This document shows, piece by piece, positions 577 to 61,526 of a stretch of DNA of 64,000 bases (position 1 is the stretch's first letter; each line of letters begins with the position of its first letter). Under the pieces are notes generated by a model. That model was given only the letters and a program-made list of their open reading frames with translations, was not told the DNA's origin and searched no databases. Source of the DNA: Skeletonema tropicum (Eukaryota > Bacillariophyta > Thalassiosirophyceae > Thalassiosirales > Thalassiosiraceae); assembly GCA_037178625.1 (NCBI GenBank), contig CM074127.1, positions 1,240,001 through 1,304,000 on the forward strand. The letters run 5' to 3'. The position numbers and the translations under genes were made by a program.

Positions 577-3104
577 ATGAAGCCAAAGGGAGGAAATAGA
601 TTGGGTAAGACGAATTTGAAAGTAATAATTCGAGAGCATTTACCAAGAAGAGTTACGATAGATTTCAACTCATGCTGGGTACTTGATGAATCGTCTCAAT
701 GTGGCAATGAATCGAAATGTGACGATGAATTAGTATCTCAATGTGACGAAGCTGAGGAATACGAATACAGACCACCACGACGCTTAGACTTAAACTTGAC
801 TGAAAGCTATGGGGTCAAACAGATGGACATCGATTCAATTCGACAACAATGTGCAGAAGATGATACAAAAGAAAATATCCCGGTCGAATTTGGATGGAAG
901 GGAACGCTTTGTCGGCTGACGTGAGGAAACTACAACAGGCACACGACTTGAGCATATCCAACTCAATCAGCATTGATGAGAGACTCCAGTCAGTCAAGGT
1001 TGATATGATTGACCTGCAGTCGAAAGATTTCATCTTCGGCAAGTGTTGAAGCACTCGAAAGTTTGAAGCACATGATAGACACGAGATGCTCGAGAGCCGA
1101 ACAAAATCTAGAAGACTACAAGTCAAGTTTCATGATACAAGTCAATGGACAGATAGATCATGGTATGATGAATCTCAAGACGTGGTTTGGTGATTTGGAA
1201 GTCTTGGTGAAGCAGCGCCAGACGAAATTAGAGGAGTTAGTAGGTTCGTGTGCTAAGCAGTACGATGTTGCTGCATTACAGGAGAGGATTGAGTCGGATG
1301 TAGCAGCCGTGACCAAAGACGCTTCCTTTCTTAACGATGTAGTCAAAGCTCAAGGACGTGCATTTGTTGTATGGCAAAAGAAAATGTCGATCTCGATGCT
1401 TCACAAGAAGTATTCAGAGTTGAGAAGAAGGAGTTTGAAAAGGGGTCTGCAGACATGGAGGCTTGTGGCTGCTAAAGCGAATCAAATCCAAAACAGCCAA
1501 GCGGTCTCAAACGTCTCTGCTGAAGATAACAATCGCACGAATTATTTCACGTAGGAAACGATATGCTCTTGAAAGATGGATCCGATCAAATGAACAGCAT
1601 CGCAAAGTTGAACGACGAAAGCTGAAAGCGTCGGCGTTAATGAGAAATCTTTTAATAGCATGCGCTACTAAGTCCAAGTTGGCAGCATTTAATCAATGGC
1701 GTCGGATGGCCATAATGGACAAGATTACAACCAGTCCAACACCAACCACGTATAGCATTGGTCAAATCATTGGCTCCTTCAATGATGACTTGCACGGTGC
1801 AGCACAAGTCATTGCACACGAAATTCATCAGATCAAGATACATGAACTTCCTACGCTACGACAGGAATGGACTGAACGAAGTGATATGATGACTACCTCC
1901 TTTCACACAAGCATGAACGAAGCTGTCCGCAGAGTAAACGATGCGTTTAGCTCTTCTCTCGAGGCTACAAACAAGAGAGTAGATGGATGTGTAGATGATC
2001 TTGCCGGGGTCAACGTGACGCTTCAAGAATACCTGGACAAATTCAAGAAGAACGACGAAAATGTCGAAACGTTGAGAAGAACTCATCAGAAAGAGCTGGA
2101 CGAATCATATGCAAGGCAGGCAAAGCTTGAAGAAAGGCTAATACTGCTGGAAAAACACGTAAGGGCATCTGATGAACAGTTATCCAGCTTGAGTAATGAC
2201 CACGAACAATCAAAGGCTTCTATCAAAGAACTTCATGAGATTATTAGCAAGAATGAAGAACGGCATGAATATGAACGAAAGACTCTCCAAGCTGTAATGA
2301 ACCACTTCGGAGATGAACTGCTCAAGGCCAAAGTAACTCTGGGGCATACTCAAGTTCGTTGTGAAGCACTAGAAAAGGAGTGTTCCAAGACAAAGTCTGA
2401 GCTTGACATCTTCCGTCGAGCTGCCCAGTCTGAGAACGAACAGATTTATAATCACATTCATCACCCTGGAATGAAACGACCATGCTTGAGAAGAATTGCC
2501 ATGGTCGGTAATTCTTATGAAAAGCTTGCCAAGGAAAAGAATTATGTCACAGGAATCAATGTAATCACATCCATGATCACCTCTCCGACTTCGACACTGT
2601 ACACTGATGAAGGAGGTCAAAAATCACGTCAAGAGGAAGTGGACTTGCCCGCTGAGATTACTGCATTTGCCCACGATTACGCCTGGTGGATTTCATACCA
2701 GACTGACCATGAATCACTAACTCGCATGATACTTGGAAGTACCCAAGAAGATCAAGTCTACGCCGAGGATGATATGTTGTCACGACGGAAGAGTCTAATC
2801 GAAGAAGTAAAAATCGAACTTGGGACAGAGTTGGAACACGTGACGTATCCAGGAGAGGTCACTTCTGAATCATCGACACGTGGACTTGGTCTGCGATGGG
2901 AGGCAAGAGCCATCTTTTTGTCACGTGTCGTAGATGCCATTAATGCTGCTCTTTCCAAGCACGACCAAATTCTCTTACCAGCACCAACGCGTTTGGGTAG
3001 GGTTAGGCCTTTATCAGCCAACTGTCACTGTATGTGTTGCATGCGATCGTCCAATGCGCAGAAAGGGACGCCCAATATCTAATGCTAATGATGATACTGG
3101 ATAA
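577..3104 (+). CDS. Long coiled-coil protein, Sfi1-like W repeats, frame-interrupted
   Basis: I do not recognise an orthologue. Charged, helical coding sequence continues across the whole span but changes frame several times, so it is one gene with interruptions. The middle (about 1380–1720) has helices with spaced aromatic motifs such as LQTWR, LERW and FNQWRR, reminiscent of Sfi1/centrin-binding repeats. The part from about 1840 to 2450 is a typical coiled coil rich in E, K, L and Q. The frame changes near 900, 1025, 1465–1545 and 2995. The last change reaches a natural-looking C-terminus (VCVACDRPMRRKG) that ends at 3104 instead of 3082. A GT–AG intron at 921–1019 (99 nt) is an alternative for the first two changes, but the sequence inside it reads as coiled coil (RKLQQAHDLS, RLQSVKVDM). 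A centrosomal or cytoskeletal role is only a guess. Confidence 0.5.
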
Positions 3105-3375
3105 CTATCAGCTGGTGTATGTTGTAAACCATATCGAATATGTTCCAACCTCTTTTCATTTCCTTGTCCCGTGGTCAAAAGGCACCGAACCAACCGAACA
3201 ACATTCAACCTCTTATTTTGAAGGTTGCTTGACTATGTAGGAATTAGTACTAAAATTGCCGCCCTTCATCCAAAGTGAAGAGCAAAGATAGATCTTCGAT
3301 GCGATGAGCCAAGCTGCCAGGAGCCAAGCAACAAGCAAGAAGCATGCCAATTATTTTTTTGAGTGAGGAAGGGAG

Positions 3376-59600: not shown

Positions 59601-59887
59601 AGAGAACAACAAGCCCAGTTAGAAGTGGACGTTCTACCTCACACCAGAAGAAATTTCAAGGCTCAACACAATAGCGGCCAACTCAAGTGCTCAGCTGGAA
59701 AGTGCCGACATTTAGATGAGAAAGATGCTCATCCGAAGTACTATACGTTATAGAGAGAGAAGTATACAGGACATATCTTGGATTTGGACTTACTTTCGAA
59801 AAGGGGATGTAATTTTATAATTATGAACACACATGAGAATTCTCCTTGCTCAAATTGCAAGCATCAGCTTTCTGGTCGTGACACAAC

Positions 59888-61526
59888 TCAGGGAGACGTT
59901 TCCATAGAATCTTCCTGTTTGTCTGCCTCTTCATCACCGCCATACTCATCATTGTCATCAAGCTCGTTGTACATGTATTCTTTGTTGTATTCCATCAAGT
60001 ATTGAGTACTTCTCTTCACATCCACAAACAGCTTGTACACACGTTTGATATCTTCAATTTCTACCTGGGCACTCTTCCTCTTCTCAGCTGCAAGAGACGC
60101 CGTAATGACCATTTGAATAGCATACCGCAAACTCGTTTCCGTACCAATACGTGCTAATAGCTCAAGTGCATCATCGGCCATCTCAACGTCTTCTTCTTCA
60201 CATCTAACCGTCAAAATCTTGAGAATCTCATCATGAGTGTATGGGTCAGTACTCACAATCATCAATCTATCCAGCAAATCCAACGGAATCCCATGAGGAC
60301 TCTTATACTCCGTACCACGAATATTCGTAATACCACGATTGGTCGCAATCACCAACACGGGTGCCATATCCGACTCCAAGGCACGGTTCAAAAATGAAAA
60401 AGCACTCCATATCCAACATGTGCACTTCATCAATAAACAACACGCCGGGAATAATCTTGGCACGTCCCTCCTCCTTCCACTCCATAACCTTGGCATCAAT
60501 CTGTTCTCGTACCTCACTCTTGATTTCACCAGTGTCACCGGCAAACAATGCCAAGAATCCCTGCTGACGTGAATTGATCACATCAATCTCATGTAAACTA
60601 ACATTGTGTACGACCTCCTTGCGTTTTTGCAATTCACCCTCGGGACATTGGACGAATCGTGTTTGTGATCCCATGGCATCATAATCTCGTGATCGACTGA
60701 AGGATCGTCCTAGCTTGGTGATCTTACCGGATGCTTTATCGATTGTAATGACATCTCCGGCGGTGACCTTTTCCTTGGATAGGGCATCAATCATCTTTGT
60801 TCCAAGGTCGTAGACTGTTTCCATGTCGGTTGTGCAGAGTGTTAATCGTCCAGTTTTTTCCATCCCACCACCACCTTTTTGTTTTCCGGGTTTGTTGTTA
60901 TTATTATCGGCTCCCGATGCAAATGACGTATCAATTTGAATTTCAACAACTTCACCTTCCATAACTTCCGTTTCTTCCAATATTTGTACACCGATGGATT
61001 TCCGCATTGCTTGTGTCAATGCTTCTGTTTTGGACATTTCGAGGGAGAAGACTTCCGAGCCGCTCATTGTTGTGAAGGGTGTGTGTTCGCCTAGTTGATG
61101 AGCGAGTCCCATGGCGATGGCGGTTTTGCCCGTGCCTGGTTTGCCTGCTAGGAGGATTGCTCGTCCTCCAATCTGGATTTATTGTATGTATTGTTGTGTG
61201 ATGATGCAGTGATGGTAGATTTTAAAAGTCAAGTGTTGGCATTGCAATATTGAAATCAATCAATCAATCTCATGGCCAACAGGTAAAGCATCAACACTCA
61301 CCTTTCCCTCATTAATCATTCTATAAATAACCCCCACCGCCTTCCTAGCCTTCGCCTGACCCACCATCCCCTGCGACCCCCCCTTGCGCGGCTGCAATCC
61401 ATCATCGAGACCGAGGCCACGAATGTGAGAGTGTGCGCCGATGCGTTCGAGGCGAGTCATTTCACGGACTGTCATGCCACCGCTGGTGGAACTGCTGGGA
61501 TCGTTGGAGAGTTTTATTCCGCTCAT
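59888..61526 (-). CDS. RuvB-like AAA+ ATPase 2 (Reptin type)
   Basis: Exon 1 (61526–61302) holds the N-terminal RUVBL motif ([15 protein letters not shown]). After a 129-nt intron (61301–61173), exon 2 carries Walker A ([17 protein letters not shown]), the OB-fold insertion, Walker B (LFIDEVHML), sensor 1 (IATNRGIT) and the [13 protein letters not shown] block. The acidic tail ends [19 protein letters not shown]1/2 form hexamers in INO80/SWR1 chromatin remodellers, R2TP and snoRNP assembly. One frame break is tightly placed: the family sequence [13 protein letters not shown] requires TGC TTT TCA, but the strand has TGC TTTTT CA (A run at 60397–60401), that is, one extra T. Confidence 0.9.

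Follow-up and report, generated by a model that had tools for sequence, protein, structure and literature searches.

The window analysed here is a 64,000-bp stretch of chromosome 1 of Skeletonema tropicum (C1:1240001-1304000) in an assembly of 78.39 Mb and 125 contigs. It carries genes for tRNA-dihydrouridine synthase (DUS1; 54143-56067, plus strand), ketopantoate reductase (KPR; about 57217-56080, minus strand), GapC, TPI-GAPDH, pyruvate kinase (PK), RUVBL2, a KH/WW protein, PI4K and a 'chromatin' protein, for the relatives of which no Pfam domain is listed. An open frame of 448 codons with internal DNA repeats and a Kazal-type inhibitor domain lies at 45430-46776. The segments 27637-28863 and 11588-12807 form an inverted duplication of 93% identity, one copy of which contains an ORF (11213-12415) that weakly matches LicD; all gaps between the two copies fall in the first ~400 bases of the alignment. 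Tandem repeats of ~185-190 bp that are about 69-76% alike are found at 4574-5501 and, elsewhere on chromosome 1, at L004:1675-3630 and L005:3045-6100. The GAPDH domain of TPI-GAPDH (12788-13790, minus strand) is 84% identical to GapC (15079-16085, plus strand) and shares long identical tracts with it, a likeness that resembles gene conversion as judged from the sequence.

A first-pass annotation of the window had described conserved genes that repeatedly run out of frame and continue one base later. Relatives' proteins were aligned to the DNA with a frameshift-aware protein-to-DNA aligner written for this analysis, which bore out the breaks in DUS1, KPR and the 'chromatin' gene. When these three genes were aligned to several relatives, 27 bases proved to be extra and one, at 22202, to be missing; the +1 bias is thus confirmed and exceeds what had been claimed. 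DUS1 is broken between 54419 and 55953 by eight extra bases (54419, two near 54588, two near 55487, 55642, 55928 and 55953) and by no missing one. These events were placed at the identical six places in 7/7 relatives (P0165-P0171), as four single and two double insertions, and the suspected true losses at 54588 and 55487 turned out to be two insertions each; the best relative is 93% identical to the stitched protein. The sites themselves exist, with some positions shifting by a few bases (55642 in DUS1, not 55636). KPR has seven extra bases within 610 bp (56326 to 56935, minus strand) and none missing when aligned to P0001-P0006, of which P0004 fuses two insertions into one +2; against P0008, the reading is one -1 plus five +1. 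The 'chromatin' gene has 12 extra bases and one missing base between 20004 and 22417 on the plus strand (alignment to P0121-P0124), and zero events were counted with the same relatives in 19305-20003 and 22418-23940. This count omits 20332 and 22689, which are intron edges, and 23946, which was seen with P0122 only, and it includes three events (20004, 20589 and 20930) in weakly conserved stretches.

Further breaks are likewise present in the deposited sequence. GapC contains one extra base at 15477 (plus strand), which puts Gp_dh_N and Gp_dh_C into two frames, and the TPI part of TPI-GAPDH contains one near 14165 (14160 to 14170, minus strand), where the coding strand is devoid of T. Read by eye, PK carries one extra A, C or T at 58835 (plus strand) and RUVBL2 one extra T or C at a T run around 60399 (60397 to 60401, minus strand). 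The KH/WW protein has a single +1 break at 31091 (plus strand) between KH-bearing frames. In the N-terminal stretch of PI4K (52638 to 53699, minus strand), for which the first-pass annotation lists breaks, reference-free +1 transitions were found at about 53500, 53200 and 52800; the PI4K body (48415 to 52311, minus strand) is a single open frame of 1298 codons.

According to the first-pass annotation, the extra base can at most sites be a T of the coding strand that directly follows a whole codon, usually with an in-frame TAN or TGN codon, stops included, next. To determine which base is extra, every removal near a break was scored against relatives. In the window, 23 events were scored, 20 single and 3 double; unscored were KPR 56935, for which there was no stop-free candidate, and two intron edges with too short flanks. 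Among the 20 single events, the best set includes T in 11, A in 11, C in 10 and G in 12, and T scored worse than another base in 9. Seven single events in HSP70 on C9 and CCT3 on C4 had T in the best set five times and outside it twice. All 27 single events together are compatible with A in 13, C in 16, G in 14 and T in 16 cases, that is, with any base and no site rule. The T rule thus fails in 11 of the 27, although in two of these 11 (KPR 56651 and HSP70 979) the shortfall of T is only 1-2 points. Placing a T immediately behind a complete codon is among the best solutions for 7 of the 20 single events in the window. The motif of GGC followed by T, said to recur at four sites, was likewise not borne out at three of them: at 54422 and 21579, A or G beats T by 4 points, and at 15477 the paralogous GAPDH domain (12788-13790) lacks just the C in blastn, with the gap inside a near-identical tract, so that the extra base is C rather than T.

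In their best placements, 2 of the 20 single events have an in-frame stop right at the break (TAA at KPR 56910 and TGA at 22417), as does 1 of 23 events in the aligner's own placements. A stop of the upstream frame lies within one codon of the break in 3/20 and ten or more codons further on in 9/20, again in best placements. No stop is present at 18 of 20 breaks. It had also been argued that a +1 shift relative to the sense strand of genes on both strands is not expected of random error. Since an inserted base is +1 whichever strand is read, random insertions look alike both ways and the argument cannot separate error from biology. Neither the T rule nor the codon context as a general rule nor the strand argument is supported.

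The breaks had been described as clustered. When the checked genes and the intact ORFs are taken together, 32 extra bases lie in 31.3 kb of coding sequence, 15 of them within 3 kb, and the longest clean run is 13.1 kb; none of 5000 random placements was as extreme, in a set whose intact ORFs were picked for being intact. In the checked genes alone (31 events in 13.9 kb), 131 of 5000 placements put as many as 15 into 3 kb, and the length of the longest gap was unremarkable. The clustering is therefore strong with intact ORFs counted and weak within the genes checked against relatives. The density of breaks likely is uneven across the window, and in the alignment to relatives the breaks end inside the 'chromatin' gene.

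Conserved genes elsewhere in the assembly were searched for with Pfam profiles, which matched 22 stretches for CCT and 34 for HSP70. Four CCT and five HSP70 genes have one frame open across nearly the whole profile. Broken on contiguous DNA are CCT3 on C4 and HSP70 on C9, C21 and C14. Alignment to solved relatives gave five extra bases for HSP70 on C9 and two for CCT3 on C4, with none missing in either, and frame arithmetic gave +1 for each of the two breaks in HSP70 on C21 and the one on C14. The split at C4:2121405-2121634 is too short for an intron; the remaining tabulated CCT and HSP70 splits, in a tabulation that leaves aside partial matches, have gaps of intron size. Gene finding without a reference, in which frameshifts and introns were allowed freely, returned 406 +1 and 383 -1 changes and was not used. 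A stricter count of ORF transitions, which mixes in introns, tandem genes and chance, gave 13 +1 and 5 -1 in 43 kb of coding sequence of the window and 9 +1 and 10 -1 in a 95-kb coding sample, and by itself reveals no +1 excess outside the window.

Insertions of the same kind were found in a satellite 1.1 Mb off the window. The satellite occupies L002:1-5602 (L002 is C1:100001-110000), has monomers of about 589-600 bp, is followed by a 500-N gap and recurs on C53 and at 0.66 and 5.38-5.39 Mb of C1. Nine L002 monomers (5369 bp), each compared to the nearest monomer in other arrays, differed by 23 single-base insertions, 6 single deletions and 9 substitutions, besides 4 longer insertions and 3 longer deletions. 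Among 17 distinct monomers from elsewhere (10,075 bp), compared among themselves, there were 2 single insertions, 2 single deletions and 19 substitutions, with 2 longer insertions and 1 longer deletion. At 154-155 codons, the satellite's longest open frame has a coding score below zero; 17 of the single insertions lie inside and 6 outside this frame, as its length predicts. The insertion-rich spectrum is, therefore, also present in DNA that does not score as coding. The 23 inserted bases are T 10, C 5, G 4 and A 4, and 20 of them copy an adjacent base.

Other repeats show few or no gaps. Seven repeat pairs of at least 95% identity outside the satellite had 4 single-base gaps in 5194 aligned bp. 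Between two broken genes, at 18870-19042, lies a dispersed element of ~140 bp, with a long run of A behind it, that looks SINE-like on inspection alone and has at least 40 matches genome-wide. It is 100% identical to another copy over ~136-137 bp and, being too short, was dropped as a control for errors. From the few gaps in the repeat pairs and the exact match of the dispersed repeat it follows that errors would be local and do not occur genome-wide at such a rate.

All four bases are involved, no fixed signal marks the sites, and a tandem repeat that does not resemble a gene carries such insertions as well. We therefore conclude with high confidence that single superfluous bases, left behind by the long-read assembly, cause the frame breaks; these are present in the deposit and most likely not in the organism. 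Insertion-type assembly error is the one of the explanations offered by the first-pass annotation that holds up. The assembly of strain CNS00166 was, as described in PMC11032307, made from PacBio CLR reads (127x) with MECAT2 and Purge Haplotigs and polished with Arrow and with Pilon (519x short reads). Single extra bases would have been wrongly retained in the CLR consensus along stretches some kilobases long, at a density of about 4-6 per kb and of 11 per kb over the 610 bp of KPR, and polishing was evidently without effect there. The reads themselves presumably lack these bases, and Arrow and Pilon may have failed for want of uniquely mapped reads; the same report shows short-read depth near 0 at many 1-kb points, which its authors attribute to repeats. 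A near-identical second copy that blocks polishing was considered and rejected: the KPR region matches only itself in the assembly, and among the 44 matches listed for 12001-31900 none is allele-like over a long stretch.

Several observations count against assembly error. The published polishing should clear most such errors, and the assembly has no second copy of the KPR region that might have hindered it. The published read-error spectrum is mixed, since PacBio errors are described as "dominated by insertions" (PMC6879543) and one raw CLR set has the opposite ratio, with 8.8% deletions and 2.9% insertions (PMC5964698, Table 1). The clustering is strong only with the intact ORFs counted. The few gaps in the seven repeat pairs and the exact match at 18870-19042 also speak against assembly error, and the coding insertions can be read as copies of a neighbour in 12/20 cases versus 20/23 in the satellite.

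If the extra bases were real and either skipped by Euplotes-like +1 ribosomal frameshifting or excised from the mRNA, this would account for the strong +1 bias of the window and of the broken genes elsewhere, and for proteins that are conserved, given that the relatives are intact; two events can even be placed at an in-frame stop. The breaks share no common site, though, neither by base nor by stop codon, and nine CCT and HSP70 genes are unbroken over nearly the whole domain. Furthermore, satellite DNA carries the same insertions, and GapC and the near-identical tract of its paralogue differ at the site by the extra base. We regard this explanation as very improbable. Slightly less credit still is due to gene decay, to which the repeated breaks within each of DUS1, KPR and the 'chromatin' gene would point. 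Pseudogene decay normally leaves deletions and stops as well; the three genes show extra bases with a single missing one instead of both kinds of change. Decay is also a poor match for the 74-93% identity of the stitched proteins to their best relatives, and it would have to extend to RUVBL2, PK and CCT3. In conserved coding DNA, natural indels are expected to be infrequent and to go in both directions, and heterozygous or strain-specific indels should not yield 4-6 single insertions per kb; such indels are just as hard to credit as decay, despite a reported heterozygosity of 0.73% (PMC11032307). That S. tropicum carries many single extra bases at no fixed site in some of its genes and repeats, tolerates them, and corrects the reading frame at the RNA level or on the ribosome is equally improbable.

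Real breaks would mean that nuclear genes of a diatom are pervasively decoded in non-triplet fashion, of which our literature searches found no published report; nor did they turn up frameshifting in S. tropicum, and the main text of a re-annotation of S. tropicum (PMC12159174) does not mention frameshift, assembly error or sequencing error. Read as residual insertion errors, the breaks are a warning and not a discovery: in parts of a chromosome-level assembly, several false bases per kb disrupt the gene models, and claims of gene loss, pseudogenes or frameshifting from the CNS00166 assembly need read support.

Two known systems can be compared. Long-read assemblies with residual indels, as described in PMC12007338, are alike in having single-base indels inside and outside coding sequence, disrupted gene models and a BUSCO completeness that is lower for the annotation than for the assembly (86% and 96% here; PMC11032307). 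Unlike in those assemblies, the events in S. tropicum are nearly pure insertions and unevenly distributed, despite two described rounds of polishing. Euplotes shares the excess of +1 over -1 in conserved genes (PMC10235951, PMC4759687). According to PMC10235951, Euplotes shifts need UAA or UAG, mostly as AAA_TAR with an inserted T, and the T of TAR accounts for about 72% of gains and losses. A stop-directed mechanism of this kind would need a stop at every site, whereas the breaks in S. tropicum have one at 2 of 20 and show no preference for T.
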